From an uncultured Isoptericola sp. (lineage in GTDB: Bacteria > Actinomycetota > Actinomycetes > Actinomycetales > Cellulomonadaceae), in NCBI GenBank assembly GCA_947497265.1, contig CANMFP010000004.1:186001-250000 (forward strand): 64,000 nucleotides of DNA. The letters run 5' to 3'. Below the pieces are notes generated by a model. That model did no database searches. It saw only the letters and a program-made list of their open reading frames with translations, and was not told where the DNA came from. Within the stretch, counting starts at the first letter, position 1, and the number at the start of each line of letters is the position of its first letter. A program made the translations under genes and the position numbers. Shown here in pieces: positions 38,537 to 53,967 of the stretch.

Positions 38537-40852
38537 TTACATAGCCCCTCGGGCCAACTGTCGTCGTGGGATGCGTTGCTCGATCGCGGCCACGGTCCGG
38601 GCGCAGTTCTGGTTGTCGCGCAAAGGGAATGCTGCGTCGATGCGGGCCTGATAATAGGGGTCCGGCCGGCAGTCGCGCTTGAGCAGGTCCTCCACTGCCT
38701 CGAGCGTCTGGTCGAGGGTCCGCACTACGGGACCGAATCCGTCCCGCTCGTAGTCGAACCACGACGGCGAGGAGTGCTTGGTCTCGAAGTCGTCCTCGTC
38801 GAACCGTGCGTAGACGATCGGCGTGCCGATGTAGGCGACATCGAAATGGACCGAAGAATAGTCGGTGACGAAAGCGTCGCACCCTCGGATCAGATCCTGG
38901 AAAGACATCTCGTTCGTATCCGCGATCTCGATGCGTTCGCCCGCCACCGTCGCGCCCACGAATCGGGATGCCATGTTGTAATGAGGCACAAACAGCAGCT
39001 TGTAGCCGTACTTATCCAACATATCGTGCAATCGTCGACTCTCGAGCATTCCGGACATGAAACGCTCGTACCTCGATCCCTCGTAAGGGATCTCGCGCTC
39101 TTGAGCGCCGTCCAGCACCTTCGTGACCAAGTACTTGCGCCAGGTAGGCATGAAGAGGATGGTTCGGCTGGGCGGCGTGGGTGAGAGCGCGTCGTAGCGC
39201 GGCATACCGGCCTCGACGAGCTGCGTGTCATACCCAGATCCAGATCGCAGGGCAGCCGTTTCCCCCGGCATCACGGTCAGGCAGACGTCGTATCCTGTCG
39301 TTCCACGCTTGACGACGTCCGGACTGAGATGAACACCGTGCTTGAGGTAGACACGGAGTGCGCCGACTCGCCAGACGATGTGGCGGGTGTAGTCGCCAGC
39401 TCCCCACCCTGAGGGAATGAAGTATCGGATTGAGTATGCGTTTGCCAGAACCGTGGCATGCAGCATCAGGAGCTGGTGGAGCCACGACGAGTGCGCGACG
39501 ACCTTGCCGTGGGAGGCGACGCGCTCGTACTGAGGACTCGACCTGTCAATGACGTAGTACACGGCTTGCCGGGGCCGCGTTTCTCGCAAATGCCGGAAGA
39601 GGTGAACTCCGTTGTCCTGCGCCGTGTCGGTTCGCTCACCGATCAGCCAGATCTCACGCCCGGCGAAGAACGGGCGGGTCACGAGGCGGAGGAGCCGCAG
39701 CCACCGCATCCGCCAGTGAGCAGGTCCTCTCGCAATGAAGCCGGCGTCCTTCTTGTACAGCATGCCTGCCCACTTCAGGCGTGCTGCCAGTCCTGACCCC
39801 ACCTGCGTGGTGAGAAAGGTCGCGGTGCCGTCGCCGACCGTGTGGAGGAGGTAACGGACCGCGCTCTCACGTTCCTCGCCGAGTGCATCCGAGACGTTCA
39901 CAGGCATGCTCACGGTCCGCGCGCTGATGAGTGCGCCCCGGCGAGGCCGAAGATTCCGGCGCAGCCGCAGATTCTCGACCTCCGTGTCGACCTCGATGAC
40001 CATCCGACGGTGCCCGTCACCCACTCCTGCCAGGGGCAGTCGAACGGTGAGTGCCTCCCAGCGGACGACGCCGTGGCCGTCCTTCCGGGGGGTCAGTGCC
40101 ATCGGCTCGGAGCGCACGACGTCGCCCGAAGGGCCTGTCAACGCCACCCGGTACCGCCATGGAGGCTCGATCATCGCAGGAACGAACTGCGCGGCAAGGA
40201 AGCCGAGCAACTCGATATCACCCTCGAGCGGATCCACCGCTTCGAGCAGCGGGTTGGCTGCAGCGAGAGCCAAGCGACCAAGGTAGTCGCCGAGCAACGA
40301 GCCGCGCTCCACGTCGTGGGCCATCAGGGTCCGATGGATATAGAGGGCAACGCTCCGCTTGGTCCCGCGGTCCGTCCACACCAGCAACGGAGTCGAGGTC
40401 TCCAGAGGAACCTCAGCCAGACCGTCGACCTCACGAAGGACTCGTCGTGACCAGGACGTGAGCTTTCCGACGGTGGGAAGAACGGCGACGGATCCGTAGC
40501 GACTCGGCGCGCTCTCCAGCCAGTCGCAGGCCGCCGTCGCGAGGTCCTCGTCCGAGCTGGAGATCGCCGAAACGAGTGAGACCTCGTGGGCCTCGACGGA
40601 TGTCTGAACGTCCATCTCCGTCTCGGGCCCGCAGACGATCGCGACCGGCACACCACGGAGCCGAGGAGTGCTCTGCATCTCCTCGAGGACGGCCGGCAGG
40701 AGCTCCGCCCGCCCTTCGGAGACAAGGAATACGAGGGAGATGTCTGCGGGCGGCAGCTCCTCGTCGGCCACAAGGGCATCGGTCAGCACGTCGTTCACAA
40801 GCAGCTCACTCAGCGGGGTAGGAACTCGTTGGTCGGGCGGCGCGCCGGTCAC
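38537..40852 (-). CDS. Long CDP-glycerol glycerophosphotransferase (TagF-like)
   Basis: A 771-residue protein. The first ~370 residues are beta-rich and not recognised beyond this family. The C-terminal ~400 residues are the GT-B transferase with IWLIGERTDTAQDNGVHLF, catalytic KHGVHLSPD (His505) and VTDYSSVHFDVAYIGTPIVY (Asp664). Such enzymes add glycerol- or ribitol-phosphate from CDP-polyols and build the main chain of wall teichoic acid at the cytoplasmic membrane face. The GTG overlaps the dehydrogenase TGA by 4 bp. Chain substrate (glycerol or ribitol) cannot be told from the sequence. Confidence 0.88.
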   Translation of the reverse strand: MTGAPPDQRVPTPLSELLVNDVLTDALVADEELPPADISLVFLVSEGRAELLPAVLEEMQSTPRLRGVPVAIVCGPETEMDVQTSVEAHEVSLVSAISSSDEDLATAACDWLESAPSRYGSVAVLPTVGKLTSWSRRVLREVDGLAEVPLETSTPLLVWTDRGTKRSVALYIHRTLMAHDVERGSLLGDYLGRLALAAANPLLEAVDPLEGDIELLGFLAAQFVPAMIEPPWRYRVALTGPSGDVVRSEPMALTPRKDGHGVVRWEALTVRLPLAGVGDGHRRMVIEVDTEVENLRLRRNLRPRRGALISARTVSMPVNVSDALGEERESAVRYLLHTVGDGTATFLTTQVGSGLAARLKWAGMLYKKDAGFIARGPAHWRMRWLRLLRLVTRPFFAGREIWLIGERTDTAQDNGVHLFRHLRETRPRQAVYYVIDRSSPQYERVASHGKVVAHSSWLHQLLMLHATVLANAYSIRYFIPSGWGAGDYTRHIVWRVGALRVYLKHGVHLSPDVVKRGTTGYDVCLTVMPGETAALRSGSGYDTQLVEAGMPRYDALSPTPPSRTILFMPTWRKYLVTKVLDGAQEREIPYEGSRYERFMSGMLESRRLHDMLDKYGYKLLFVPHYNMASRFVGATVAGERIEIADTNEMSFQDLIRGCDAFVTDYSSVHFDVAYIGTPIVYARFDEDDFETKHSSPSWFDYERDGFGPVVRTLDQTLEAVEDLLKRDCRPDPYYQARIDAAFPLRDNQNCARTVAAIEQRIPRRQLARGAM

Positions 40853-42108
40853 AGCCGGACAGCGCGCGGATCCTTCGAAGCACCCTTCGTGTCGAAGAAG
40901 CGCTGGGACTGAGCGACCAGGGCGTCGACGTCGTAGGCCGTGTGGTCCTGGACCAGGATGACGAGGTCGGCCTCGCGGACGGAAGCCTCAAGGTCGTCGA
41001 CACGCGTCAGGACGGTGCCGTCCACGCGCCACTCCTCGACCGCCGGGTCGTGGAAGCGCAGGTCCGCCCCGCTGGACAGCAGCGCGTGGGCCAACGGGAT
41101 CGCTGGCGACTCGCGCTGGTCCGCGATGTCTCGCTTGTAGGTCACGCCGAGCATGAGCACCTTGGCGCCGCGCAGCGCCTTCGAGTCCTCGTTGAGCGCA
41201 TCCTGCGCACGCCGGGCGACGTACGACGGCATCGTCGCGTTGATCTCCTGGGCCAGCTCGACGAACCTGAACGGGTAGCCCAGACGCGAGCGCACGTTGT
41301 GGCTGAGGTAGTTCGGGTCGATCGGGATGCAGTGCCCGCCGACGCCCGGCCCTGGGTAGAACGCCTGGAAGCCGAACGGCTTGGTCTTCGCCAGATCGAT
41401 GACGTCCCACAGGTCGATGTCGAGCTCGTGGCAGAACCGCGCCATCTCGTTCACCAGCGCGATGTTGATGTGCCGGTAGGTGTTCTCCAGCAGCTTCGCT
41501 GTCTCCGCCTCACGAGCGCCCTTGGCCTCGACCACCGTGTCGACGAACCGGCCGTAGAGGTCCGCAGCACGTCGTGTCGCGGCCTCGGTGGTGCCGCCGA
41601 CGACCTTCGGCGTGTTCTTCATCCCGTACACCGGGTTGCCCGGGTCGATGCGCTCGGGCGAGTAGGCGAGGAGGAAGTCCGTCTCTGCGCTGAGGCCGCC
41701 CTTCTCCAGCAGCGGGCGCAGGACCTCCTCCGTGGTGCCCGGGTAGGTCGTCGACTCCAGGACCACGAGCATCCCGGGACGCAGGACCTCCGCCGCGGTG
41801 CTCGTCGCCGAGACGACGGCGCCGAGGTCCGGTCCACCGTCCGGGCTGAGCGGCGTCGGCACGCAGATGACCACGGCATCGGTGTCGCGGATCTCCTCGA
41901 TGTCCGACGTCGCGACGAAACCCCCGTCGAGCATCTTCTGCACGTCGGCGTCCGTCAGATCGTCCACATGAGACCTGCCCGCGTTCAGGCCCTCGATGAT
42001 CTGCGGGCTCACGTCGAACCCACGCACCGAGAGCCCCGCGCGCACGGCTTCCTGCGCGAGAGGCAGACCGACGTAACCGAGTCCGACTACTACGAGGTCG
42101 AGCGACAT
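40849..42108 (-). CDS. UDP-sugar 6-dehydrogenase (WbpA/WecC-like)
   Basis: A 419-residue NAD-dependent dehydrogenase that oxidises a UDP-hexose or UDP-HexNAc to the uronic acid. It has the N-terminal Rossmann motif VVVGLGYVGLP, substrate loop PTPLSPDGGPDL, and catalytic Cys260 in GPGVGGHCIPIDPNYL. This GGHCIPIDP form is typical of WbpA/WecC-like enzymes acting on N-acetylhexosamine nucleotides rather than the TuaD/Ugd SCFPKD form. GGAGCAAGAA precedes the ATG. It is upstream of, and coupled to, the TagF-like gene. A decayed copy of its 3' end lies at 25.5 kb. Confidence 0.9.
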   Translation of the reverse strand: MSLDLVVVGLGYVGLPLAQEAVRAGLSVRGFDVSPQIIEGLNAGRSHVDDLTDADVQKMLDGGFVATSDIEEIRDTDAVVICVPTPLSPDGGPDLGAVVSATSTAAEVLRPGMLVVLESTTYPGTTEEVLRPLLEKGGLSAETDFLLAYSPERIDPGNPVYGMKNTPKVVGGTTEAATRRAADLYGRFVDTVVEAKGAREAETAKLLENTYRHINIALVNEMARFCHELDIDLWDVIDLAKTKPFGFQAFYPGPGVGGHCIPIDPNYLSHNVRSRLGYPFRFVELAQEINATMPSYVARRAQDALNEDSKALRGAKVLMLGVTYKRDIADQRESPAIPLAHALLSSGADLRFHDPAVEEWRVDGTVLTRVDDLEASVREADLVILVQDHTAYDVDALVAQSQRFFDTKGASKDPRAVRL

Positions 42109-42176: not shown

Positions 42177-44336
42177 CTAGGTCGAGTCGTGGGCCGGCTG
42201 CTCGGATGCTCCGCGCCGGTCCTGTAGCCGCCACCACTGCACGGCGGGCCCGCCGGCGCCATGCACCGATGCCGCGACTCGCTCACAGTTCCGCCGATCA
42301 TGGTAACGAACCATGCTCTCGGCACGCCTCGCATGCTCCGGCTTCACGGTGTAGCCAGCATCCATGATGCGCTTGACCTCGTCGACGAGACCATCGACGT
42401 CCTGCACGATCTGCCCCGGCAGATCCTGCTCGATGTCCAGGAGCGACCCCTGAGGTCCGAAGAATCGTTCCTGGTCGAACTGGAAATAGACGACCGGACG
42501 GTGCTGCAGGGCGAAGTCGAAGCCGACCGAGGAGTAGTCGGTGACGAGGGCGGCGTGGTCACGCAGGAGCGTCTGGACGTCGGTCTCCCCCTGTCGCAGC
42601 ATCTGCACGCCTGGCGCGTCGAACATGTCGGCGAAGTGGCGCATGTTGGGATGCAGGATGAAGGTCACCCGGAGCCCGTCGCTCAACGACTCAGCAAGCC
42701 ACGGGTGCGACAGGAAGGCCTGCCACCGGTCCCGGTACTCGCTCGCGCTGAAGGAGTCGCGATGTGTCAACCACTCGCGCCACGTCGGGATCACGAGGAG
42801 GCCCGACGGAGGATGTTCTTGCGGGGCCAGGAGCCGGTCGAACCGCGGCAGCCCTGTCACCCGGACCTGCGCCGGACGGTACCCGAACTCCTCGATGGCG
42901 ACGCTGCGCTCACGGTCGGAGCTCACGTGGAAACGGTCCGTGAAGAAGCCTGAGGCGAACCGACCGTAGTTGGCCACCATGTTCTTGGTGCCGGAGACGC
43001 CATGCCGCAGAAAGACGCGCACGCCACGCACGCCCGCGATCACCCGAGGGTCCCGGGAGGGCAGCAGGTACTCCGCATGATGGGTGCTGACCAACCGGCT
43101 CGCGAGGAACGAGACGCGTACGTGTTCGGGCGAGTTCCGCAGGACCACGTTTCCCAGCCCGTCGAGACGCTCCAGGTCCGGCGCCTCCCGGTCGATCACG
43201 TAGAAGGCGCGGCGACGCGGGTGGTGCTCGCGGAGCCACCTGAACAGGTGGTACCCGTTGTCCTGGGCCTTGTACGGAAGCTCTCCGATCAGCCAGATGC
43301 CGAGGAACGGGCGCACCAGGGGCAGCCACCTCGCCAGGCGGGACCACCGCAAGATCTCGCGGTGGACGGATTCGTCCATCCGCTCGACACGCAGCGAGCG
43401 GTTCTTCCCCCGGAAGGTCGTGTGCGGGACGAACTGGAGGACATCTCCGCGATGCCGCACCGGGCCCCAGGCGAACTCGCGGTCACCGGGATCAGCCTTG
43501 ATGCGTACCTTCTGGACATGCCCGTCGGCGTCTCCGACCTCGACGTAGAGGTCCAGCAGCTCGTCCCGTGCATCGAGCCGGTCAGCCAGCCCTTCGAGGT
43601 CCAGCGCGACGGACGCGCTCTGGACGAAGCGCCCTCGGTCGGCCCGCGCCACGTCCGGCAGGTCCACGAGATCGCCGTCGAAGACGTAGCGGTTCTCGCT
43701 CTCCCTGGGGATCGCGACGACGCGGACATCGGTCGCCGGCCGGTCACCGCAGTGAGTCTCGACCTCGAGCACCGGCACGGCATCAGCGCCCTGCCGCTCG
43801 CGGACGATCACCTCGAACTTGCGGCGTGTGGTCGCGCCGAACGACAGGCTGAGGTTGCCCTTCTGCGTGACCACGACCTGCGCGGACTCCGCAGCGGTCG
43901 TGCTCGATCCGGGCTCACGGAGCGTCGCGGCGAAGTTGCCGAGTCGTACCGGCTCCGGCGGCTCCACCTCGGCGGCATCGGTGACGTCGAGACTCTCGGG
44001 TACCAGGTGCATCCACAGATCGGCCACGTCGCCGGACCGCGCCGCTCCCCGGCGAAGCTCGTCGAGGGGAAGAACCACCGTCGTCTTGCCCTCGGCCTCG
44101 GCCGCTACCACCCGCACCGCGGCGCCACTCTCGCGCAGCACAGCCGCGAGCTCCCCGACCTTCCAGCCCTGGCGCACATAGCGGATCGTGAGGTGGAGGG
44201 CATCCTCCCGCAGCGCGAACCGGACACTCCGCTTGCGCGGCGTACGAGGGGCCGCGTCGGCGGCCCGATTCCTCGCACGACCTGGCACGATATTGCGGAG
44301 CGTCGTTCGGAACGGCGTCGAGGACGGCGCGCTCAT
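42177..44336 (-). CDS. Long CDP-glycerol glycerophosphotransferase (TagF-like)
   Basis: A 719-residue protein built like the one at 38537-40852. An N-terminal half of beta-rich character (residues 40-330) is followed by the transferase with GIWLIGELPYKAQDNGYHLF, catalytic LRHGVSGTK (His445) and VTDYSSVGFDFALQHRPVVY (Asp600). It is a probable polymerase or co-polymerase of a polyol-phosphate wall polymer. The ATG at 44336 is an estimate: the frame is open for 34 more codons and the Shine-Dalgarno signal is weak. A 68-bp gap separates it from the downstream dehydrogenase gene. Confidence 0.85.
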   Translation of the reverse strand: MSAPSSTPFRTTLRNIVPGRARNRAADAAPRTPRKRSVRFALREDALHLTIRYVRQGWKVGELAAVLRESGAAVRVVAAEAEGKTTVVLPLDELRRGAARSGDVADLWMHLVPESLDVTDAAEVEPPEPVRLGNFAATLREPGSSTTAAESAQVVVTQKGNLSLSFGATTRRKFEVIVRERQGADAVPVLEVETHCGDRPATDVRVVAIPRESENRYVFDGDLVDLPDVARADRGRFVQSASVALDLEGLADRLDARDELLDLYVEVGDADGHVQKVRIKADPGDREFAWGPVRHRGDVLQFVPHTTFRGKNRSLRVERMDESVHREILRWSRLARWLPLVRPFLGIWLIGELPYKAQDNGYHLFRWLREHHPRRRAFYVIDREAPDLERLDGLGNVVLRNSPEHVRVSFLASRLVSTHHAEYLLPSRDPRVIAGVRGVRVFLRHGVSGTKNMVANYGRFASGFFTDRFHVSSDRERSVAIEEFGYRPAQVRVTGLPRFDRLLAPQEHPPSGLLVIPTWREWLTHRDSFSASEYRDRWQAFLSHPWLAESLSDGLRVTFILHPNMRHFADMFDAPGVQMLRQGETDVQTLLRDHAALVTDYSSVGFDFALQHRPVVYFQFDQERFFGPQGSLLDIEQDLPGQIVQDVDGLVDEVKRIMDAGYTVKPEHARRAESMVRYHDRRNCERVAASVHGAGGPAVQWWRLQDRRGASEQPAHDST

Positions 44337-44514: not shown

Positions 44515-45600
44515 TCAGGCGCCGAACGTCCGCCGTACGCGGCCCGCGACCGCACCCGGGAAGCCCCGCAGCGTCCTGCGCTCCAGCGCGGCCTCCAGGT
44601 CGGCGACCCGTGCCTGGAGACCCGCGATCTGCCGCTGGTCCGCGCGGCGGGCCTTCTCCAGGTCGCGCACCTCGTCGCGCAGCCGGTCGGCGCCCAGCGC
44701 GAGGTCGGCGATGCGCTGCCCCGTCGCCACTCGACCCGCGATGTCGCGGAAGGCTTCCTTCGCCCAGGTCGGGTCCTTCGCCAGCACGGCGTCGAAGTCC
44801 CACAGGTGCCCGAAGCGCTCGATGTCCCCGGCGTAGACATCGTCCAGGATCGCGAGCACGTCGTCGCCGAACACCCGGCCGGCCACCGCCAGCGGCGTCT
44901 CGTTCTCGCGGGTCAGGGTGTAGGTGCCCGGGAGCCCCTGCGCCTCGAGGTGGGCGCGCAGGTCGTCCAGCATCAGCGGCAGCTCGGACACCTCGTACAG
45001 GTGGCTGTACGGGACCACGCTCTCGCCGAGCGCCTCGGTCTGCGGCTTGAAGTGGGAGTCGTTGAGCAGGTCTGCACCGCCCGGTCCACGCAGCGCCTGG
45101 ACGAACCGGGCGAAGTCCTCCACGACGTCGGCGTCGCTCTCGGGGACACGCGGCATCCACGGAGCGTCGCGGAACTTGTGCCATGCGTGCCGGGGGTTGC
45201 CGACGAGAAACTTGGACTGCCATGCGGACCATGCGCGCACGCGCGGGTCACGGATGACCCCGAAGATGAACCAGCCGTTCTCCGGCGAGATCTCGGCGCG
45301 CTCGTCCTCGTCGAGGTCGACCAGCTTCGGGACGTCGACGAACGACGCGCGCCGGTGGATCGTTTGCTGCCGCGTCGGAGCGAGACCCATGACCGAGTGA
45401 AACGTCGCCGGGTCCTGGCCGCTGAGCTCCGCCGTCAACCACTTCAGGCTCGTGCTCGCGTTCTTGGAGACGTTGACGAAGACGACCTTGCTCTGCGGCA
45501 CCACCATCGAGTTCCAGATGCGGCCTGCTTTGGCGGCGTTCCGTGGACGAGACGCTGAGATCGCGACGCGGCCGCGCACCTCGGCGCTGCGCACTGACAT
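44515..45600 (-). CDS. Sulfotransferase family protein (sulfotransfer_2 type)
   Basis: A 361-residue sulfotransferase that would move sulfate from PAPS to a hydroxyl or amine. The PAPS 5'-phosphosulfate loop is VFVNVSKNASTSLKW (Lys46) and the 3'-phosphate site FGVIRDPRVRAWSAW (Arg117, Ser125), as in glycan O-sulfotransferases. The last 60 residues form a coiled coil ending in a basic tail (VAGRVRRTFGA) that may bind membrane or a partner. It is the last gene of the cysQ-cysD-cysN-sulfotransferase run, with 107 bp to the previous gene. The acceptor is presumably the glycan made by surrounding genes. Confidence 0.83.
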   Translation of the reverse strand: MSVRSAEVRGRVAISASRPRNAAKAGRIWNSMVVPQSKVVFVNVSKNASTSLKWLTAELSGQDPATFHSVMGLAPTRQQTIHRRASFVDVPKLVDLDEDERAEISPENGWFIFGVIRDPRVRAWSAWQSKFLVGNPRHAWHKFRDAPWMPRVPESDADVVEDFARFVQALRGPGGADLLNDSHFKPQTEALGESVVPYSHLYEVSELPLMLDDLRAHLEAQGLPGTYTLTRENETPLAVAGRVFGDDVLAILDDVYAGDIERFGHLWDFDAVLAKDPTWAKEAFRDIAGRVATGQRIADLALGADRLRDEVRDLEKARRADQRQIAGLQARVADLEAALERRTLRGFPGAVAGRVRRTFGA

Positions 45601-45707
45601 GTTCAGTCGTACTCCTCTTTGTTCCCACCAGACCCGGCACAGGTGAACCGCGCGGAGACAGCCTACGGCAACCGGAGCATCCGGCTGGACGTACCGCGCT
45701 TCCGGGA

Positions 45708-46457
45708 TCAGTCAGCGCGACGCGGCGGAGCCGGCGGGCTCGTCTTCCGCTCGGCCAGCCCTGCCAGCTCACGCGAAGCGCGCCCCAGCACGCGAGACGC
45801 GAGCGAGAGCGCCGGCGTCCGCGGTTGCGGGAGCTCCCGGTACCCGAACCGTCGGAAGTCCTCGGCGTAGAAGCTCTCGAGGCGCGCCAACAGACCCTCC
45901 GAGACCTCCACGTCCTTGCTCGAGATGCCGCGCGTCTTCTCGCTCGTCCGCACCGGTTCGACCTCGGTGGACAACCCGAGATCGAACCGCTCGTTGAGGT
46001 CCGTCATCGCCGTGTCGAGCCCGTCCTCGAGCCGGTAGACCTGCGCCTCGCGTACCAGGAACTCGACCTGCGGGCGGATGTGGTTGTCGTGGACGAACGG
46101 GTTGCGCTCGAAGCGTTCGAAGGTGTGCTCGGCCCACGCGTCCACGGCGTCGGCGGTGGTCATGAGCTCCTGCTTGTGGCGCATCACGTACTCGGAGCGG
46201 AACCGCGCGACCGGGTCGCGGACGACGGCGAAGATCGCGTCGAACCGACCCAGTCGCAGCGTCTCCTGCAGGAGCTGTCCGTGCATGTGCTGCGGCGTAC
46301 AGGTCCGCAGGTAGTTGGGCTTGCCCTTACCCATGCGGCCGTCGTGGTAGGACATCTCCCACCCGGCCGCGACGAAGTGGTTCTCCACGGAGGAGCCACC
46401 CGTCTTGGGCACATGGATGAACAGGACGTTGCGGTCGTCCTTCGTGAAAACTGGCAT
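45708..46457 (-). CDS. Sulfotransferase family protein
   Basis: A 249-residue sulfotransferase. The 5'-phosphosulfate loop FIHVPKTGGSSVENHF (Lys18) and the 3'-phosphate site AVVRDPVARFRSEY (Arg80, Ser88) are intact. The core is compact, with a basic, Pro-rich C-terminal tail. It starts 15 bp after the cysN stop, so it is very probably co-expressed with the PAPS-making enzymes. It shares the fold but little sequence with the neighbouring sulfotransferase, suggesting two different sulfation sites. No signal peptide, so sulfation would occur inside the cell before export. Confidence 0.85.
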   Translation of the reverse strand: MPVFTKDDRNVLFIHVPKTGGSSVENHFVAAGWEMSYHDGRMGKGKPNYLRTCTPQHMHGQLLQETLRLGRFDAIFAVVRDPVARFRSEYVMRHKQELMTTADAVDAWAEHTFERFERNPFVHDNHIRPQVEFLVREAQVYRLEDGLDTAMTDLNERFDLGLSTEVEPVRTSEKTRGISSKDVEVSEGLLARLESFYAEDFRRFGYRELPQPRTPALSLASRVLGRASRELAGLAERKTSPPAPPRRAD

Positions 46458-46472
46458 GGCGGTCGCGTCCCG

Positions 46473-47783
46473 TCAGGAACTGTGCGGCAGGCCGCCGACC
46501 ATGCCCGCTGCGACCGTCTTGTTCGTGGACTCGTCGACCAGGATGAACGAACCGGTCTCCGAGTTCTGCTGGTACGGGTCGACGAACAGCGGCTGCGTCA
46601 CGCGGAGCTGGATGCGACCGATCTCGTTGAGCTTGATCTCGGTCACGCCCTCGTCACGGTGCAGGGAGTTGACGTCCACGCGGTAGTTGATGTCCTTGAC
46701 CATGGCACGGGCCCACCGGGTCGTGTGCTTGATCGCGTACTTCTTGCCCACCGTCAGCGGCGCCGACTCGTCCATCCAGCAGATCTGCGCGTCGATGTTC
46801 TGCAGGGCGGCCGGGGTGTTGTTCGGCCGCGCGATCATGTCGCCGCGGGAGATGTCGATCTCGTCGGCGAGGCGCACCGTGACGGCCATGGGCGGGTAGG
46901 CCTCGTCGACCGGGCCGTCGGCGGTGTCGATCGACTCGATGGTCGTCTCCAGGCCGGCCGGCAGCGCGACGACGCGGTCGCCCGGCTTCATCACGCCGGA
47001 GGCGACGGTTCCCGCGTAGCCGCGGTAGTCACGGGCGTCGTGCGACTGCGGGCGGATCACGTACTGCACCGGGAACCGCACGTCCACGAGGTTCCGGTCC
47101 GAGGCCACGTGCAGGCGCTCGAGGTGGCTCAGGAGCGGCGAGCCCTCGTACCACGGCGTGTTCTCCGAGCGGTTGACGACGTTGTCGCCCTCCAGCGCGG
47201 AGATCGGGATGAAGGTCAGGTCCGGCACCCGCAGGCGCGACGCGAACTCCGTGAAGTCCTTGCGGATGTTCTCGAAGACCTCCTCCGAGTAGTCCACGAG
47301 GTCCATCTTGTTGACGCACACGACGATGTGCGGCACACCGAGCAGGGTCGCCAGAAAGGTGTGGCGCCGGGACTGCTCGATGACGCCCTTGCGGGCGTCC
47401 ACGAGGATCAGCGCGGCGTCCGCCGTCGAGGCGCCCGTGACCATGTTCCGCGTGTACTGGATGTGCCCCGGGGTGTCCGCGATGATGAACTTGCGCTTCG
47501 GGGTCGCGAAGTAGCGGTAGGCGACGTCGATCGTGATGCCCTGCTCGCGCTCGGCCCGCAGGCCGTCGGTCAGCAGCGAGAGGTCGGTGTAGTCGTTCCC
47601 GCGGTCCTTGGAGACGTTCTCCACGGAGTCGAGCTGGTCCTCGAAGATGGTCTTCGAGTCGAACAGCAGGCGGCCGATGAGGGTCGACTTGCCGTCGTCG
47701 ACGGACCCCGCGGTGGCGAACCGCAGCAGGTCGGTCGAGCCGTCGGTCAGTGCTTCGGCCAGGTTCTCGGTCGTGGTGCTCAT
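46473..47783 (-). CDS. cysN: Sulfate adenylyltransferase subunit 1 (GTPase)
   Basis: A 436-residue translation-factor-like GTPase that drives adenosine 5'-phosphosulfate formation by CysD. P-loop AGSVDDGKSTLIGRLL (25-40), DTPGH and the NKMD guanine motif (VCVNKMDLVDYS) are intact, followed by EF-Tu-like domains 2 and 3. It is of stand-alone CysN length with no fused APS kinase; the kinase is encoded separately by cysC at 50.7 kb. It follows cysD by 3 bp. The product feeds CysC and thereby the two sulfotransferases downstream. Confidence 0.95.
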   Translation of the reverse strand: MSTTTENLAEALTDGSTDLLRFATAGSVDDGKSTLIGRLLFDSKTIFEDQLDSVENVSKDRGNDYTDLSLLTDGLRAEREQGITIDVAYRYFATPKRKFIIADTPGHIQYTRNMVTGASTADAALILVDARKGVIEQSRRHTFLATLLGVPHIVVCVNKMDLVDYSEEVFENIRKDFTEFASRLRVPDLTFIPISALEGDNVVNRSENTPWYEGSPLLSHLERLHVASDRNLVDVRFPVQYVIRPQSHDARDYRGYAGTVASGVMKPGDRVVALPAGLETTIESIDTADGPVDEAYPPMAVTVRLADEIDISRGDMIARPNNTPAALQNIDAQICWMDESAPLTVGKKYAIKHTTRWARAMVKDINYRVDVNSLHRDEGVTEIKLNEIGRIQLRVTQPLFVDPYQQNSETGSFILVDESTNKTVAAGMVGGLPHSS

Positions 47784-47786
47784 GGC

Positions 47787-48689
47787 TTAGAAGTAGCCCT
47801 CTCGCTTGCGGTCCTCCATGGCGGCCTCGCTCACCTTGTCGTCGCCACGTGTGGCGCCGCGCTCGGTGATGCGCACCGCGGCGGTCTCCTCGACGATGGC
47901 GTTCAGGGTGGAGGCCTGGGACTCGACGGCAGCCGTCAGGTTGGCGTCGCCCACGGTGCGGTAGCGCACGGAGCGGATCTCGGAGGTCTCGCCCTCCTTG
48001 AGGGGGGTGAACTCGTTGACGGCGAAGAGCATGCCGTCCCGGTTCACGACCTCACGCTCCTGGGCCAGGTACAGGTCCGGGATGTCCATGTTCTCGGCCG
48101 CGATGTAGGACCAGATGTCCAGCTCGGTCCAGTTGGACAGCGGGAACACGCGGATCGACTCGCCCTGGTGGACGCGGCCGTTGTAGAGGTTCCAGATCTC
48201 CGGACGCTGGTTCTTGGGGTCCCACTGCCCGAAGTCGTCACGGAACGAGAAGACCCGCTCCTTGGCGCGGGCCTTCTCCTCGTCGCGGCGCCCACCACCG
48301 AACGCGGCGTCGAAGCCGTGCTTCTCCACGGCCTCGAGCAGCACCGGTGTCTGGATCCGGTTGCGCGAGCCGTTGGGCTCCTCCTTGACGAGGCCGCGGT
48401 CGATCGCGTCCTGCACGGAGGCGACGACCAGCTGGATGCCCAGGCGCTCGACCCACCGGTCGCGGGTGTCCAGCACCGACTGGAAGTTGAGCCCCGTGTC
48501 CACGTGCATGATCGGGAACGGGATCCGCGCCGGAGCGAAGGCCTTGGCCGCCATGTGGAGCATCACGATCGAGTCCTTGCCGCCGGAGAACAGCAGCACG
48601 GGCCGCTCCATCTCGGCGACCACCTCACGGATGATGTGGATGCTCTCCGCCTCAAGGCTGCGGAGCTGGCTCAGGACGTGAGACGTCAC
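47787..48689 (-). CDS. cysD: Sulfate adenylyltransferase subunit 2
   Basis: A 300-residue N-type PP-loop ATP pyrophosphatase that joins sulfate to ATP. Motifs are VLLFSGGKDS (31-40), the HVDTGLNF strand, and the RRDEEKARAKERVFSFRD loop near the active site. The C-terminus ends MEDRKREGYF as in other CysD proteins. The GTG at 48689 overlaps the cysQ TGA by 4 bp, and the long upstream open frame is not coding. It works as a complex with CysN. Confidence 0.95.
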   Translation of the reverse strand: MTSHVLSQLRSLEAESIHIIREVVAEMERPVLLFSGGKDSIVMLHMAAKAFAPARIPFPIMHVDTGLNFQSVLDTRDRWVERLGIQLVVASVQDAIDRGLVKEEPNGSRNRIQTPVLLEAVEKHGFDAAFGGGRRDEEKARAKERVFSFRDDFGQWDPKNQRPEIWNLYNGRVHQGESIRVFPLSNWTELDIWSYIAAENMDIPDLYLAQEREVVNRDGMLFAVNEFTPLKEGETSEIRSVRYRTVGDANLTAAVESQASTLNAIVEETAAVRITERGATRGDDKVSEAAMEDRKREGYF

Positions 48690-49579
48690 GACTGGGCACC
48701 TTCCTTGATCGCCACGCCGACGCCCTGGAGCGCCGCGCGCAGGTGCGCGGCGAGGCTCGGGTGGCAGACGAACAGATCGGGGAGCCAGGGATCCTGGCGG
48801 TTGTACTCGAGCGGGGTGCCGTCGAGCCTCGTGCAGTCGTACCCGGCGGCGAGGGCGACCGCGACCGGAGCCGCGGAGTCCCACTCGTACTGGCCACCGC
48901 CGTGCACGTAGGCATCGACAGTACCGTCTACGACGGAGACGACCTTCACGCCGGCCGATCCCATCGGCACCAGCTCGACGTCGTCGCGCCCGGCGAGCTC
49001 GGCGACGAAGGCGGGCGGGCGGCTGCGGCTCGCCGCGATGCGCAGCGGACGCTCCCCCGCCAGCACGGCCTGGGCCTCGGCGTCCCGCGTAGCGGCCGAC
49101 GACGGCGCGCCGGTCGTGTGCACCACGCCACGGGCGGGCAGGGCCACAGCGCCGGCCGCGAGCCCGCCGGGACCGCTCGTGCCGCCGTCGGCCCCGCGGA
49201 CCCACAGCGCGACGTGCACGGCGAAGTCATCGCGCCAGGACCCCGCCCCGCCGTCGGCCGGACGCTCGGCGAACTCGCGGGTGCCGTCCAGCGGGTCGAT
49301 GATCCAGACGCGGTCGGCACCCGTTCGCGCCGAGTCGTCCTTGGCCTCCTCGGAGAGGACGGCATCGTCGGGCCGGGCGTGGGCGAGCGCGCCGGCCAGC
49401 CACGCCTGCGCGGCGGCGTCGCCCGCATCCTTGAGCCGGCGCGGCTCGAAGCCACCGCCCGCGGCGTCGACCTCGTCGCGCAGGGAGAGCAGCACCGCAC
49501 CCGCGCCCTCGGCCAGCGCAGCCGCGAGGGCGGCGTCGTCGAGCACCGGTTCCGGAAAGACCGGGGTGGTCGTGGACAT
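48686..49579 (-). CDS. cysQ: 3'(2'),5'-bisphosphate nucleotidase (PAP phosphatase)
   Basis: A 297-residue inositol-monophosphatase-fold enzyme that removes the 3'-phosphate from PAP, the by-product of PAPS-dependent sulfation. Metal ligands are seen in LSEEAK (Glu77-Glu78), IIDPLDGTREF (Asp95, Asp98) and EWDSAAPVAVA. AAGGAG lies 4 nt before the ATG at 49579; an earlier ATG in frame lacks it. It is the first gene of the operon and divergent from the transporter/cysC operon. Its presence fits PAPS use by sulfotransferases, which release PAP. Confidence 0.92.
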   Translation of the reverse strand: MSTTTPVFPEPVLDDAALAAALAEGAGAVLLSLRDEVDAAGGGFEPRRLKDAGDAAAQAWLAGALAHARPDDAVLSEEAKDDSARTGADRVWIIDPLDGTREFAERPADGGAGSWRDDFAVHVALWVRGADGGTSGPGGLAAGAVALPARGVVHTTGAPSSAATRDAEAQAVLAGERPLRIAASRSRPPAFVAELAGRDDVELVPMGSAGVKVVSVVDGTVDAYVHGGGQYEWDSAAPVAVALAAGYDCTRLDGTPLEYNRQDPWLPDLFVCHPSLAAHLRAALQGVGVAIKEGAQS

Positions 49580-49646
49580 CAAGCTCCTTGTGTCTGGGGA
49601 GTGTCTCGGGAGGTGGCTCACCGCGGCCCTCGGACGCCGCTGAGGC

Positions 49647-49652
49647 TACCAT
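49647..49652 (+). promoter_or_regulatory. -10 box TACCAT driving a leaderless small ORF and the TauE/SafE-cysC operon
   Basis: TACCAT is followed by 7 nt and an ATG at 49660. No other promoter is evident between cysQ and the transporter gene. Confidence 0.5.
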
Positions 49653-49659
49653 TCCGACC

Positions 49660-49767
49660 ATGCCTGTCACCGTGCGCACCCGACGGCCGAGACGACCGGC
49701 GACCACACCGGTCCGCGGTTGTCGCTCCGCCGTCGAGCACCGGGACGGGGGCCGGCACCCGGCATGA
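49660..49767 (+). CDS. Small leaderless ORF with one cysteine, possible leader peptide
   Basis: A 35-codon ORF, very rich in Arg (10 or so), starting MPVTVRTRRPRRPATTP and containing a single Cys in the segment VRGCRSAVEHR. Its TGA overlaps the ATG of the sulfate-transporter gene as ATGA, so the two are translationally coupled. Short leaderless, Arg- and Cys-containing ORFs before sulfur genes are known in actinobacteria and act as cysteine-responsive attenuators in mycobacteria. Whether this one does so is inference. Codon use is weakly biased because the peptide is so short. Confidence 0.45.
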   Translation: MPVTVRTRRPRRPATTPVRGCRSAVEHRDGGRHPA

Positions 49768-50747
49768 TCGACATCGATCCCGGCCTCATCGTCGGGGGGC
49801 TGCTCGTCGGGTTCATCGTCGGGCTGACCGGTATGGGCGGCGGTGCCCTGATGACGCCGATGCTCATCTTCGTCTTCCGCGTCGACCCGCTCGTCGCCGT
49901 CTCCAGCGACATCGTCGCCAGCCTCTTCATGAAACCCGCCGGCGCGATCGTGCACCTGCGCCGCCGGACCGTGAACCTCCAGCTCGTCCTGTGGCTCTGC
50001 CTCGGCTCGGTGCCCGCCGCGTTCTGCGGAGTGTTCCTCATCCGTGCCCTGCCCTTCGGCGACTCCCTGGACGAGGCGCTGCAGATCATCCTCGGCATCG
50101 CGCTGCTGATGGCGGCCACGATGCTCGTGGTCCGCGCCACCCTCGGCATGGTCCAGCACCGCCGGGCGCTCGGCGAAGGCCCGGCCCGCCTGTCGAACGC
50201 CGAGGTCGTCGTCCGCAAGGTGCCCACCGTGATCCTCGGGGTCGTCGCCGGGCTGCTCGTCGGGATGACGTCGGTCGGGTCCGGGTCCATCATCATCGTC
50301 GCGCTGCTCATGCTCTACCCCGCGCTCAAGGCCTCCAACCTGGTCGGCACGGACCTCGTGCAGGCAGTCCCGCTGGTGGCCGCGGCGTCCCTCGGCCACG
50401 TCCTCTACGGCGAGTTCGAGCTCGGACTCACCGTGTCCCTGCTCGTCGGTGCGATCCCCGGCGCGTGGTTCGGTGCCCAGGTCTCCAGCCGCGCCCCCGG
50501 TGGGCTCATCCGCCGGGCACTGGCGATCCTGCTGCTCGCCTCGGGCCTCAAGCTGCTCGGCGCGTCCGTCACGGTCGTCGCGGTGGCCGCCGTCGGAGCC
50601 CTCGTGCTCGGCAACCTCGCCTGGGTGATCGTGCGCGAACGGCTCAAGAAGCGCCCGCCACCGTCGGCCACCGCCGAACCACCCACTGCCGCACCAGCCA
50701 CCGCCGAACCGGCCTCCGTCACGAAGGACAGCACCGAGAGCTCATGA
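49764..50747 (+). CDS. TauE/SafE family anion transporter
   Basis: A 327-residue membrane protein with about eight helices in two repeats, each opening with the family GxxVGxxxGxxGxGGG-type turn (GFIVGLTGMGGGALMTP and GLLVGMTSVGSGSIIIV). TauE/SafE proteins carry sulfite, sulfonates or related anions, and in this context sulfate supply to PAPS synthesis is plausible. The ATG at 49764 is chosen because it forms an ATGA overlap with the upstream small ORF; a TTG 45 nt earlier is the alternative. Its own TGA overlaps the cysC ATG by 4 bp. The C-terminal tail is Pro/Ala-rich. Confidence 0.83.
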   Translation: MIDIDPGLIVGGLLVGFIVGLTGMGGGALMTPMLIFVFRVDPLVAVSSDIVASLFMKPAGAIVHLRRRTVNLQLVLWLCLGSVPAAFCGVFLIRALPFGDSLDEALQIILGIALLMAATMLVVRATLGMVQHRRALGEGPARLSNAEVVVRKVPTVILGVVAGLLVGMTSVGSGSIIIVALLMLYPALKASNLVGTDLVQAVPLVAAASLGHVLYGEFELGLTVSLLVGAIPGAWFGAQVSSRAPGGLIRRALAILLLASGLKLLGASVTVVAVAAVGALVLGNLAWVIVRERLKKRPPPSATAEPPTAAPATAEPASVTKDSTESS

Positions 50748-51970
50748 ACACTCCCGAGACCACCCACGTCCTGACGCCCGACGAGCTCGACCTGCTCGAG
50801 CTCCACCTCGGGGGCGGCACGCCGACGATGCGCCTGGGCGGTGGCAGCCCGAACGCCGCGGTCACGCTGACGGACGCAGAGAACACCCCCCTCGCCGTCC
50901 TGGAGACCGACGGGACGGCGACGGCCGTGAAGCCGCTGGCCCGCGCCGCCGGTCCACACTGGGACCCCGCGCTGCGCCGCACCGCCCACGAGGTCCGGGA
51001 CGAGGTGCGCCGCGCCGTCGGACCGGACGCCGACGTGCTGGCGGTCGTCGTCACCGAAGCACCCACCCGCGACGAGCTGGCCGCGCTGCCGGACGTCACG
51101 GCCGGCGCCGCCGCCGTCCTCGTCCTCGCACCCGCAGAGCGCCGGGCACCGGCGCCCGGAACGCTCGGTGGCCCCGGCCTGGCCCGCGCCGCCACGGTGG
51201 TGCGCGACGCCGTCGGCGGCACCGGTGCGACCCGGCCGCGCGCCGTCGTCGTCCCCTGGGCGGCCGACGCCGGGCTCTCCTGGGAGGAGATCGCGGCGCA
51301 GCACGGTGCCGACCGGTCCGTGCTGCTCGCCGACCACCGGTCCACCGCCACGCGCGCACGCCTGGCACGGCTCGGCACGCTGTGGGCCGACGAGGTCGCC
51401 GACCTGTACCCCGAGCCCGTGGCCGAGGAGGTGACCCGTGCGGCGAGCAGCGCCCGGCGCGAGGGCACCGTCGTGTTCTTCACGGGGCTGTCCGGCTCCG
51501 GCAAGTCGACGGTCGCGCGCGCACTGGCGGCCGAGCTCGACGACGAGGGCCGCCACACCACGCTGCTCGACGGCGACGAGGTGCGCCAGCACCTGTCCAA
51601 GGGGCTCGGGTTCGACAAGGCCTCGCGCGAGCTGAACGTCGAACGGATCGGCTACGTCGCCTCCCTGGTCGCCTACCACGGCGGCACCGCCGTCGCGGCC
51701 CCCATCGCGCCGTTCGCGAGCGGACGGGCGCGGGTGCGCGAACTGGCGGAAGCCGCCGGACGCTTCGTGCTGGTGCACGTCTCGACGCCGCTCGAGGTGT
51801 GCGAGGCCCGCGACCGCAAGGGCCTCTACGCCAAGGCGCGCGCCGGGGAGATCCCTGAGTTCACGGGCATCTCCTCACCGTACGAGGTGCCCGAGGACGC
51901 CGACGTGGTGGTCGACACCTCGGTGACCTCCGTCGAGGACGCCGTGGCCCAGGTGCGCGCCGTCCTCTGA
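50744..51970 (+). CDS. cysC: Adenylyl-sulfate kinase with N-terminal ATP-sulfurylase-like domain
   Basis: A 408-residue enzyme making PAPS from APS and ATP. The C-terminal kinase domain has P-loop GLSGSGKST (248-256), LDGDEVRQHLSKGLGFDKASRELN and VHVSTPLEVCEARDRKGLYAKARAG. The N-terminal 230 residues look like a remnant ATP-sulfurylase barrel (LTPDELDLLELHLGGG, LTDAENTPLAVLE) without the catalytic HxxH or QxRNP motifs, so adenylylation must come from CysDN. Similar fusions occur in other actinobacteria. The ATG overlaps the transporter TGA by 4 bp. It is convergent, with a 4-bp gap, with the export ATPase gene. Confidence 0.9.
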   Translation: MNTPETTHVLTPDELDLLELHLGGGTPTMRLGGGSPNAAVTLTDAENTPLAVLETDGTATAVKPLARAAGPHWDPALRRTAHEVRDEVRRAVGPDADVLAVVVTEAPTRDELAALPDVTAGAAAVLVLAPAERRAPAPGTLGGPGLARAATVVRDAVGGTGATRPRAVVVPWAADAGLSWEEIAAQHGADRSVLLADHRSTATRARLARLGTLWADEVADLYPEPVAEEVTRAASSARREGTVVFFTGLSGSGKSTVARALAAELDDEGRHTTLLDGDEVRQHLSKGLGFDKASRELNVERIGYVASLVAYHGGTAVAAPIAPFASGRARVRELAEAAGRFVLVHVSTPLEVCEARDRKGLYAKARAGEIPEFTGISSPYEVPEDADVVVDTSVTSVEDAVAQVRAVL

Positions 51971-51974
51971 GCTG

Positions 51975-52967
51975 TCAGCCCTCGTCGCGCTGGCGGCGTC
52001 GGCCGCCACCACGGCCACGGCCACGGCCGCCACCGCCGCCACCACGGCCACCCGGTCGGCCGCCCGACCGCGCCTGGCGGTGCGCGCGGACGAACTTCTT
52101 GTAGGCGGTGGTGACCTGGTCGACGGGTCCGTCCATGACGAGGCGGCCTTGGTGCATCCACAGCACGCGGGTGCACATGGCTTCGATGGTGGAGATGGAG
52201 TGGCTGACCAGGAAGACGGTGCCGGCTTGTTGGCGGACCTCTTCGATGCGGGCTTTGGAGCGGGCCTTGAAGGCGGCGTCGCCGGTGGCGAGGGCTTCGT
52301 CGACCATGAGGATGTCGGGGATGGCGGCCGAGCTGATGGCGAAGCGGAGGCGGGCGGCCATGCCGGAGGAGTAGGTCTTCATGGGTAGGTCGACGAAACT
52401 GCCGATGTCGGCGAACTCGACGACCTCGTCGAACTTGTCGTCGATCTGCTTGGGGGTCATGCCCAGGGCCAGGCCGCCGATCTCGATGTTCTTGGAGCCG
52501 GTCATCTGGGGCATGAGGGCTGCGTTGACGCCGAGCAGGGCGGGTTCGCCGTCGACGTAGACGGAGCCGGAGTGGGGTGGGATGAGGCCGGTGATGGCGC
52601 GTAGCAGGGTGGACTTGCCGGAGCCGTTGATCCCGACGATCCCGATGGACTCGCCGTGGCGTGCGGTGAACGACACCCCGCGCACGGCGTGGACCTCGCT
52701 GACCGCACCGACGTGCTGACGCCCCGCCCCGAGCAGCCGCTTGACCAGGCTGCGCCGGACCGGCTCGGCCTTCTCGACAGGCACGCCCGAGCGCTGCGCC
52801 CGCGCCCGCTGCTTGCCTCCGAACACCCGGAAGACGATGTGCAGGTCGTCCACCACCAGGCACGGGTCGCCGAGCGGGATGCTCTCCGCGTGCTGACCGG
52901 CGTCGTCCTCCTCGAGCTCCATGTCGAAGTCGAGGTGGGCGTCGGCCTCGCTCACGTCCTCAGTCAC
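51975..52967 (-). CDS. Polysaccharide/teichoic acid export ABC transporter ATP-binding protein (TagH-like)
   Basis: A 330-residue ATPase of the TagH/RfbB group that powers export of lipid-linked wall polymers. It has Walker A GINGSGKST (112-120), signature YSSGMAARLRFA and Walker B ILMVDEALATGD. An acidic N-terminal extension (about 35 residues) and a Gly/Arg-rich C-terminal tail (about 300-330) are additions. The GTG at 52967 has AGAGG 7 nt upstream and an 8-bp overlap with the permease stop; a further GTG at 52988 is less likely. Codon choice inside the gene differs from its ends (see findings). It works with the permease upstream. Confidence 0.9.
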   Translation of the reverse strand: MTEDVSEADAHLDFDMELEEDDAGQHAESIPLGDPCLVVDDLHIVFRVFGGKQRARAQRSGVPVEKAEPVRRSLVKRLLGAGRQHVGAVSEVHAVRGVSFTARHGESIGIVGINGSGKSTLLRAITGLIPPHSGSVYVDGEPALLGVNAALMPQMTGSKNIEIGGLALGMTPKQIDDKFDEVVEFADIGSFVDLPMKTYSSGMAARLRFAISSAAIPDILMVDEALATGDAAFKARSKARIEEVRQQAGTVFLVSHSISTIEAMCTRVLWMHQGRLVMDGPVDQVTTAYKKFVRAHRQARSGGRPGGRGGGGGGRGRGRGGGRRRQRDEG

Positions 52968-53967
52968 GTCCGTACCTCTCTTCGCCACGCCAGAAGATGA
53001 TGAAGCCCACCACGAAGAACACGACCGCCCAGACGACCCCGAGGATCCACATGATCGGTTCCTGGACGAACGCCTCCTCCTCCATCATGGACGAGCGCCC
53101 CAGATACAGGTAGACGGCGATCGGCTGGTAGGTGAGCACCGGCTCCAACCAGACCTGCACCGACTCCGGGAGCCTGCCGACGTAGTGCGCCAGCGGGAAG
53201 ATCACTCCCGAGCCGTACATGGCGAAACGCAGGACGAACGAGATGATGTTGTCCAGGTCCGGCGTGATGGCCACGGCGCGCGCCATGATGAAGGCGAGCC
53301 CCATGTTGAACACCCACATGAGTGCGACCGCCGGGACGAGGAGCAGCCACTCCCAGGTGATGTGCACGGTGTCGTAGTCGCGTAGCAATCCCGACGCGAG
53401 CACGATGATCCCCATGACGACCAGCGCCGGCAGGAGCGTGGCGAGGTGCGACACCACGTTCGAGATCGGCAGCACCGCGCGGGGGAAGTGCAGCGACCGG
53501 ATCAGGTTGGTGCGCTTGTTGATCGACTGCGCGCCGCCGTTGACGGACTGCTCGACGAAGCGGAACAGGAAGATGCCGATCACGATGAACGCGATCGTGT
53601 TCTCGACACCGCGGCTCGTCCGCAGGATCAGACCGAAGATGATCACGTAGACCGCGGCGTTGAGCACCGGGTTGAGGATCGCCCAGAGCTGCCCGAGGTA
53701 GGTGTTCTGGTTCTTGGCGTACGCGGTCGCCGTGCCGAGCACCCGGATGAAGGCCCACCGCGAGGCGACGTCCTTGACGTAGGACCACAGCGGTGGTCTC
53801 ACGCCCATCTTCGTCAGGCCGTACTGGTCGGCGAGCGCCCGCCGCTCGGCCGACGACATGCCGGGAGTGATCGGTTCGGGTGGCTCCGGCGGGCTGGGCC
53901 GCCCCTCGGGGCGGTCCGGTGTCCCACGGTCACCAGAGGTGGCCCCTGAGGTGATGTCGGTGGTCAC
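52960..53967 (-). CDS. Polysaccharide/teichoic acid export ABC transporter permease (TagG-like)
   Basis: A 335-residue ABC-2-type permease with six helices (residues about 95-325) after a Pro/Gly-rich cytosolic N-terminus. Features include the amphipathic YLGQLWAILNPVLNAAVYVIIF start and the QPIAVYLYLGRS region. With the TagH-like ATPase it should form the channel that flips the finished polymer across the membrane. It is translated from a GTG without an obvious strong Shine-Dalgarno signal and overlaps the ATPase gene by 8 bp. It is divergent from the TagB/F-like gene at 54.1 kb. Confidence 0.9.
   Translation of the reverse strand: MTTDITSGATSGDRGTPDRPEGRPSPPEPPEPITPGMSSAERRALADQYGLTKMGVRPPLWSYVKDVASRWAFIRVLGTATAYAKNQNTYLGQLWAILNPVLNAAVYVIIFGLILRTSRGVENTIAFIVIGIFLFRFVEQSVNGGAQSINKRTNLIRSLHFPRAVLPISNVVSHLATLLPALVVMGIIVLASGLLRDYDTVHITWEWLLLVPAVALMWVFNMGLAFIMARAVAITPDLDNIISFVLRFAMYGSGVIFPLAHYVGRLPESVQVWLEPVLTYQPIAVYLYLGRSSMMEEEAFVQEPIMWILGVVWAVVFFVVGFIIFWRGEERYGRD

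Follow-up and report, generated by a model that had tools for sequence, protein, structure and literature searches.

A PAPS-forming gene cassette with two sulfotransferases in an envelope glycopolymer locus of Isoptericola, probably shared with sulfur assimilation

Analysis of a 64,000-nucleotide stretch of the genome of an uncultured Isoptericola sp. (GenBank assembly GCA_947497265.1, contig CANMFP010000004.1; G000:C4:186001-250000, hereafter the window) revealed a sulfate activation cassette accompanied by two sulfotransferase genes and situated in an envelope glycopolymer locus. The source genome comprises 3.77 Mb in 41 contigs and is rated 100% complete. In the explanation we favor, with moderate confidence, the cassette provides 3'-phosphoadenosine 5'-phosphosulfate (PAPS) for envelope sulfation and is at the same time the sole source of adenosine 5'-phosphosulfate (APS) detected in the genome. 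CysDN would form APS, CysC would convert it to PAPS and a CysQ-like phosphatase would clear 3'-phosphoadenosine 5'-phosphate (PAP), with a TauE anion transporter completing the set; two soluble carbohydrate sulfotransferases, which accompany the cassette in Isoptericola, would use cytoplasmic PAPS to place sulfate esters on a glycan. The likeliest acceptor would be a polymer or lipid-linked precursor that is finished intracellularly and exported by a TagGH-like ATP-binding cassette (ABC) transporter. The same CysDN would also feed the products of a cysI-cysH-cysG operon, this PAPS-type ATP sulfurylase having presumably replaced a lost assimilatory cysDN. A sole, specialised CysDN of this kind would link surface chemistry to sulfur nutrition, and the locus offers candidate genes for a sulfated wall polymer in a soil genus. 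Such an actinobacterial polymer is known by chemistry from Promicromonospora citrea (available excerpt of PMC6801904), and our literature search found nothing tying one to proven genes.

Profile matches confirmed the seven genes of the original prediction, namely cysQ, cysD, cysN and two sulfotransferase genes on one strand and a transporter gene and cysC on the other. The minus strand carries cysQ (48686..49579, inositol monophosphatase family, PF00459 99.6 bits, cut-off 27), cysD for the small subunit of ATP sulfurylase (47787..48689, TIGR02039 442.2 bits, cut-off 396.6), cysN for its GTPase subunit (46473..47783, TIGR02034 581.8 bits, cut-off 336.1), both of the CysC-linked type described below, and the genes for sulfotransferase A (STA; 45708..46457, 249 amino acids, PF03567 48.4 bits, cut-off 22) and sulfotransferase B (STB; 44515..45600, 361 amino acids, PF03567 36.9 bits, cut-off 22). 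The plus strand encodes a TauE/SafE family anion transporter (49764..50747, PF01925 149.9 bits, cut-off 32.6) and a CysC of 408 amino acids with the APS kinase in its C-terminal part (50744..51970, TIGR00455 188.3 bits, cut-off 138.7). CysN, CysD and CysC, the proteins of PAPS-forming sulfate activation, each exceed their curated cut-off. With refined starts of the open reading frames (ORFs), cysQ and cysD as well as the TauE gene and cysC overlap by 4 bases, while cysN lies 3 bases from cysD and 15 bases from the STA gene, so that the cassette genes likely form two divergent operons; the STB gene lies 107 bases beyond that of STA. The predicted PAP phosphatase is named CysQ-like on the basis of family and gene position, since it passes PF00459 but misses the cut-off of the CysQ equivalog TIGR01331 (85.7 against 228.8 bits).

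Regarding sulfur assimilation, the PF01507 profile matched the source genome in two places. One is the window cysD; the other, on contig C1, is a cysH in the order cysI-cysH-cysG, which is followed by a CbiX-like ORF and lacks cysDN, the second cysDN set that had been envisaged beside it. Neither this search nor a CysD search found a second CysD in the source genome, and no Sat-type ATP sulfurylase (PF01747) was matched in it. Assimilatory APS must therefore come from the window cysDN, which, judged from gene content, is the sole APS source that these searches detected and probably serves assimilation too. The cysI-cysH-cysG operon of G004 is likewise without cysDN. No cysH is present in the window, as had been noted at the outset, the sole cysH of the genome being that on C1; cysI and sirohaem genes were seen beside it, with no separate search of the window for them. 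Regarding APS kinase, PF01583 matched one full CysC, that of the window, and gave a partial match below cut-off on C13.

The CysH encoded on C1 passes NF002537 and TIGR00434, which bear phosphoadenylyl-sulfate reductase names, and misses the APS reductase model TIGR02055 (209.6 against 235.3 bits). It contains CC...CxxC, a motif that we take to be a mark of APS use, and five genomes (G029, G030, G126, G146, and G153) have cysI-H-D-N genes in the absence of a full-length CysC. On the basis of this motif and this comparison, the CysH of this family probably acts on APS. The original prediction had named a cysH/cysI operon elsewhere that relies on the window cysDNC as a finding that would refute it; such reliance is indicated for cysDN and does not extend to cysC, since an APS-using CysH needs no CysC. 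Were the C1 enzyme PAPS-using, cysC would be shared with assimilation as well.

The original prediction had further held the set to be self-contained, with the sole purpose of sulfating an exported teichoic or teichuronic polymer apart from assimilation. The PAPS-cycle genes and the sulfotransferase genes do stand together, CysC tracks sulfotransferases across the family, and in seven genomes with an additional cysH-linked CysDN the cassette may be dedicated. An assimilation operon devoid of cysDN in a genome with no other CysD or Sat found argues against such independence, as does the occurrence of the cassette in relatives without a PF03567 gene, and we regard this explanation as distinctly improbable for the window organism. 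A module independent of assimilation was accordingly rejected.

The context of CysDN was read in 20 further stretches, and the genes were found either beside cysI-cysH (12 loci) or beside cysC, nearly always together with cysQ (34 loci). In CysD and CysN trees of these 46 hand-chosen loci, a selection from the genomes in which the 34 CysC-linked loci include the window and Arthrobacter castelli, the CysC-linked and CysH-linked types were split with support of 100/100 and one label change; the trees were drawn by midpoint, and the CysN tree carries a long-branch warning. Both types occur in seven of the genomes read (G027, G081, G096, G151, G156, G170, and G191). When a cysH-linked CysD was used as query against 37 genomes from four genera (the window's genus with 18 genomes and three others with 2, 13, and 4), one CysD was found in each, 63-66% identical to the query, which agrees with the CysC-linked kind. 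A third PF01507 match exists in both G012 and G069; from G012 the search recovered a single CysD, and from G069 one CysD in two pieces. The cysI-cysH operon was read in two of the 37 genomes, that of the window and G004, neither with cysDN. These comparisons suggest that, most likely, the cysH-linked cysDN was lost in the four genera and the cassette CysDN serves both uses. Separate clades for CysD and CysN, the presence of only the CysC-linked type per genome and the tracking of sulfotransferases by CysC indicate that PAPS for sulfation was likely the original role, with assimilation becoming dependent on the cassette later. A specialised sulfate-activation lineage, with CysD and CysN clades of its own, seems by now to be the sole lineage of the cell.

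Investigation of 200 genomes of the family showed a full CysC in 40 of the 42 genomes with a sulfotransferase match (PF03567, PF13469 or PF00685) and in 14 of the 158 without (40 with both, two with sulfotransferase only, 14 with CysC only and 144 with neither; P 1e-27, kinship being ignored). These genomes are a sample, and the lists were typed by hand from the profile searches. CysC counts take matches of E 5.6e-49 or better, 18 first-look candidates having been scored per genome, and sulfotransferase counts take all matches of E <= 0.001, such that some genomes have no match above a curated cut-off (e.g., G010, G062, and G153). Among 14 control genomes, PF03567 matched in none and PF13469 and PF00685 in two. 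The two genomes with sulfotransferase only are G102 and G153, the match in the latter being below cut-off and containing an internal stop. The co-occurrence supports CysC as the step that serves sulfation, although the genera cannot be counted as independent and 14 genomes have CysC but no known partner for it. Genera g7 and g15 have up to eight PF13469 matches per genome, many of them away from the contig that carries cysC.

Both sulfotransferases of the window pass the PF03567 cut-off, and they are the only proteins of the three sulfotransferase families found in the source genome, which has no PF00685 or PF13469 match; a search for Sulfotransfer_5 in 16 genomes gave no match there or in the control and was hence uninformative. 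In an alignment of 38 rows (STA and 37 relatives, taken from the first 39 of 57 loci with two near-copies and the 18 most distant loci left out), residues P17, K18, G21, R80, R85, and S88 are invariant, and P17 K18 G21 and R80 R85 S88 presumably correspond to the two PAPS-binding sites. According to hydropathy neither protein has a transmembrane helix, which fits a cytosolic PAPS enzyme, and STA ends in an amphipathic C-terminal tail. The best matches of the STA profile among solved structures are the heparan sulfate 6-O, 2-O, and 3-O sulfotransferases (5t03, 4ndz, and 1t8t), which likewise belong to PF03567 and to which STA may be called similar on a weak match that spans 26 profile positions only (best E 0.00025); STB gave no match to solved structures up to E 0.1. 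The heparan sulfate enzymes, which are animal Golgi enzymes, differ in substrate. The nearest named relative of STA, 91% identical, comes from Isoptericola halotolerans CG 23, which places the source genome in Isoptericola as the database defines it, a genus that includes a strain deposited as Krasilnikoviella flava. Our literature search on Isoptericola and sulfotransferases found nothing.

Regarding distribution, PF03567 was detected in 12 of the 200 genomes, all belonging to the window's genus (12 of its 18 genomes, with 20 matches), and was not found outside this genus in the sample. Nineteen of the 20 genes lie at most 19 kb from cysC, or 1.4 kb after cysD in the case of G006, whose contig lacks cysC. 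Relatives of STA itself were present in 10 of 58 genomes, comprising the source genome and nine of 17 congeners, and in none of the 40 others. The gene after STA encodes a fusion of a family 2 glycosyltransferase (GT2) with TagF in two congeners (L019 and L021), and a gene of like length follows it in L018. In Arthrobacter castelli (L056), the orders STB-cysN-cysD-cysQ, with STB confirmed by Pfam, and TauE-cysC-STA occur together, which is an independent case in another family; among 39 of the 57 loci with STA relatives, it is one of eight with cysC, cysD, and cysN in the stretch, the other seven belonging to the Isoptericola/Krasilnikoviella group. Two plasmids carry partly similar sets, namely Serratia pJSRIV004_1 with consecutive genes for a bifunctional Sat/APS kinase, a TauE/SafE protein and a sulfotransferase (L129:924-4486), and a plasmid of Rhodobacteraceae SC52 with an STA relative, an acyltransferase and a Sat/APS kinase in succession (L130:12001-16702).

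The gene order was compared in related genomes, as the original prediction had suggested. The cassette lies at most 9 kb from TagGH-like genes (at least 45% identity) in the stretches examined of 14 of 17 congeners; the pair was not seen near it in those of G001, G003, and G007, the G003 stretch starting 0.7 kb before cysC. Among 18 CysC loci of other genera, TagGH-like genes were near the cassette in six, from three genera (L036, L038, L039, L044, L045, and L111, the last at about 9 kb). A TauE gene belongs to the cassette in 12 of 17 congeners, the contig of G006 being cut. TauE, perhaps serving sulfate uptake, may be a frequent yet dispensable part of such sets, being absent from some cassettes that bear sulfotransferases.

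Several observations weigh against envelope sulfation as set out above. Relatives that lack PF03567 genes still have the cassette close to TagGH-like genes. Because the order is retained without the sulfotransferases, it was rejected as proof of a sulfation purpose, and the claim that the set exists in order to sulfate is not supported; next to cysN, other genera have unrelated genes, among them those for a subtilase, a DUF808 protein and an amidohydrolase. No TauE gene was found in the cassette of four of 17 congeners (G005, G009, G012, and G016), two of which have sulfotransferase genes by cysN. The TagF-UDP-sugar dehydrogenase-TagF genes of the window recur in G005 without the sulfotransferases, which means that the polymer backbone does not need them. 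The PF03567 gene of G016 is 266 kb from cysC and near another TagGH-like pair, and at 31 of the 39 STA-relative loci the stretch examined lacks the set of cassette genes, so that most STA relatives stand apart from the cassette. G102 has a sulfotransferase without CysC, the sole match of G010 is below cut-off, and 14 of 54 CysC genomes have none of the three families, four of them being congeners (G001, G005, G007, and G015, with G007 74% and G015 86% complete), indicating that CysC is retained even where no partner for it is known. The direction of replacement is read from midpoint trees and from lineages in which both CysDN types coexist, and the sulfotransferase substrate could be a glycolipid, a protein or a small molecule.

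Much the same evidence bears on the explanation that ordinary assimilatory genes came to an envelope locus by chance and that the sulfotransferases act elsewhere, on a sulfolipid, a secondary metabolite or a protein. Retention of the cassette without these sulfotransferases, its position as sole APS source and the 14 CysC genomes without a known sulfotransferase would agree with it, but an APS-using CysH needs neither CysC nor CysQ, and genomes with cysI-H-D-N and no full CysC exist. The clustering of 19 of 20 PF03567 genes with the cassette and polymer genes, the GT2-TagF protein after STA in the two congeners and the action of the nearest solved sulfotransferase relatives on polysaccharides, weak as that match is, also argue against it, and we consider it unlikely. 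Of the prediction that the exported polymer is sulfated, what stands is the presence of PAPS genes with two PAPS-type carbohydrate sulfotransferases in an envelope locus, the co-occurrence with CysC and the proximity of PF03567 genes to the cassette; the self-containment does not. The substrate of the sulfotransferases is, on this gene context, probably an envelope glycan.

Regarding the polymer, TagF-like PF04464 proteins flank the cassette on both sides, and the exporter genes, placed beside it in the prediction as well, follow cysC directly. These encode a TagH/Wzt-like ATPase (51975..52988, minus strand) and a TagG/Wzm-like permease (52960..53859, minus strand, with a weak NCBIfam match and a possible alternative ORF start at 53967); the former misses the cut-offs of the TagH equivalogs (PRK13545 208.9 against 538 bits, PRK13546 186.2 against 320 bits), so that the term TagGH-type, as used in the prediction, denotes likeness only. 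ABC exporters of the TagGH kind move a polymer that is finished inside the cell, and cytosolic PAPS enzymes could thus reach the polymer before export. Beyond STB, the minus strand encodes a TagF-like polymerase as the next gene (42177..44336, PF04464), a UDP-sugar dehydrogenase (40849..42108, TIGR03026) and a second TagF-like polymerase (38537..40798, PF04464). Regarding a possible synthesis of poly-alditol-phosphate teichoic acid, several proteins of the locus pass PF04464, and TarF/TarL equivalogs are far under cut-off.

On the other side of the exporter, a polysialyltransferase-like protein (61619..63088, minus strand, PF07388) stands in a nonulosonate gene set that runs past the window end. 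There, a single protein (L124:1104-3227) combines a CMP-nonulosonate transferase, a phosphatase and NeuB (PF03102 and PF02348 over cut-off), the part resembling KdsC and the 9-phosphate phosphatase of 2-keto-3-deoxynononic acid (Kdn) being below equivalog cut-offs; the locus thus has a predicted nonulosonate synthase, phosphatase, and CMP-transferase. A GT2 gene, genes for a mannose-6-phosphate isomerase, a UDP-galactopyranose mutase and a GlfT2-like protein, and a pyruvyltransferase gene (L124:13629-15137) also lie past the window end. Two genomes of another genus, G085 and G147, show the order TagGH, a gene without assigned function, DUF6716, GT2, nonulosonate fusion and pyruvyltransferase.

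Promicromonospora citrea, which we take to belong to the same bacterial family as the window organism, provides a chemical precedent, so that a sulfated wall polymer in this family would not be new chemistry. Strain 665T has a Kdn wall polymer, a teichulosonic acid with 7,9-pyruvylated Kdn and glucose 3-sulfate (Dmitrenok et al., 2017, as cited in the available excerpt of PMC6801904). It resembles the window organism in that wall glycopolymer chemistry is matched here by nonulosonate-type and pyruvyltransferase genes; it differs in that chemistry is known there and only genes here, no genes being named in that excerpt, and PF03567 is confined to the window's genus among the 200 genomes. By this analogy a Kdn polymer is a reasonable choice as candidate substrate, and the polymer may be teichulosonic rather than teichoic or teichuronic. 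That the sulfated product is specifically a Kdn-type teichulosonic acid encoded across TagGH, a narrower form of the envelope sulfation proposed above and compatible with it, is a tentative possibility: the polysialyltransferase-like protein, the NeuA-phosphatase-NeuB fusion, the pyruvyltransferase, the comparable genes that follow TagGH in G085 and G147 and the Glc3SO3/7,9Pyr-Kdn structure of P. citrea (PMC6801904, same excerpt) point to it, but the sulfotransferase genes adjoin the TagF-like genes, away from the Kdn genes, and the TagF-side set of G005 comes with no sulfotransferases. On the sulfotransferase side, the UDP-sugar dehydrogenase points to a uronate polymer, and other sampled genera, some with the Kdn set, have no PF03567 match.

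Similar gatherings of genes are described in other bacteria. The capsule cluster of Cobetia marina KMM 1449 combines cysN/C, cysD, cysQ, a sulfate permease and sulfotransferases with a polysaccharide ABC exporter, and differs in being a Gram-negative Kps/Wcb capsule system with a fused CysNC and solved chemistry (PMC11766843, available part). Pontimonas salivibrio, an actinobacterium, has a PAPS pathway and sulfotransferases proposed, as a proposal only, for wall modification; unlike the situation in Isoptericola, no PAPS reductase or sulfite reductase was detected according to the available part of PMC6106888, so that a shared assimilatory use is absent. The wps-1 polysaccharide cluster of the actinomycete Actinoplanes missouriensis has two predicted sulfotransferases, and AMIS_7390, of the sulfate adenylyltransferase/APS kinase family, is required for normal sporangia, although the pathway there is Wzx/Wzy rather than an ABC exporter and polymer sulfation is a prediction (PMC13390465, available part).

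The CysC of the window has an N-terminal extension of about 235 amino acids (50744-51445) ahead of the kinase part. The extension was found by tblastn at 17 of 20 CysC loci (E <= 1e-6), two of seven (E <= 1e-12) and seven of eight in a third set, in which the eighth locus, A. castelli, has an N-terminal stretch aligning at 25% identity. It has no Pfam match and no match to solved structures up to E 10; on visual inspection its first part looks like the start of ATP sulfurylase, and a profile comparison with Sat (hhalign) was co-linear but weak (E 0.048, probability 1.1%), which makes a silent Sat remnant a lead only. The closest solved structure to the kinase part is 3cr8, a bifunctional ATP sulfurylase/APS kinase, in comparison with which the N-terminal part of CysC is shorter, has no Pfam match and is only weakly co-linear with Sat. 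Our literature search for APS kinases that carry a degenerate Sat domain found nothing. The wider proposal, that in Isoptericola and three related genera an envelope-locus PAPS cassette displaced the assimilatory ATP sulfurylase, with one CysDN serving cysteine synthesis as well as surface sulfation, and that a CysC with a catalytically silent Sat remnant may apportion APS between these uses, is in our view rather unlikely.

An Rfam scan of the window gave no match at the gathering score. Two more PF04464 proteins are encoded in opposite orientation at 54111-55370 and 55360-56622, and relatives of one or both adjoin TagGH in several congeners. On the TagF side of the locus, two AT3-SGNH acyltransferase fusions (26663-28786 and 36380-38395) suggest O-acylation of envelope glycans also.

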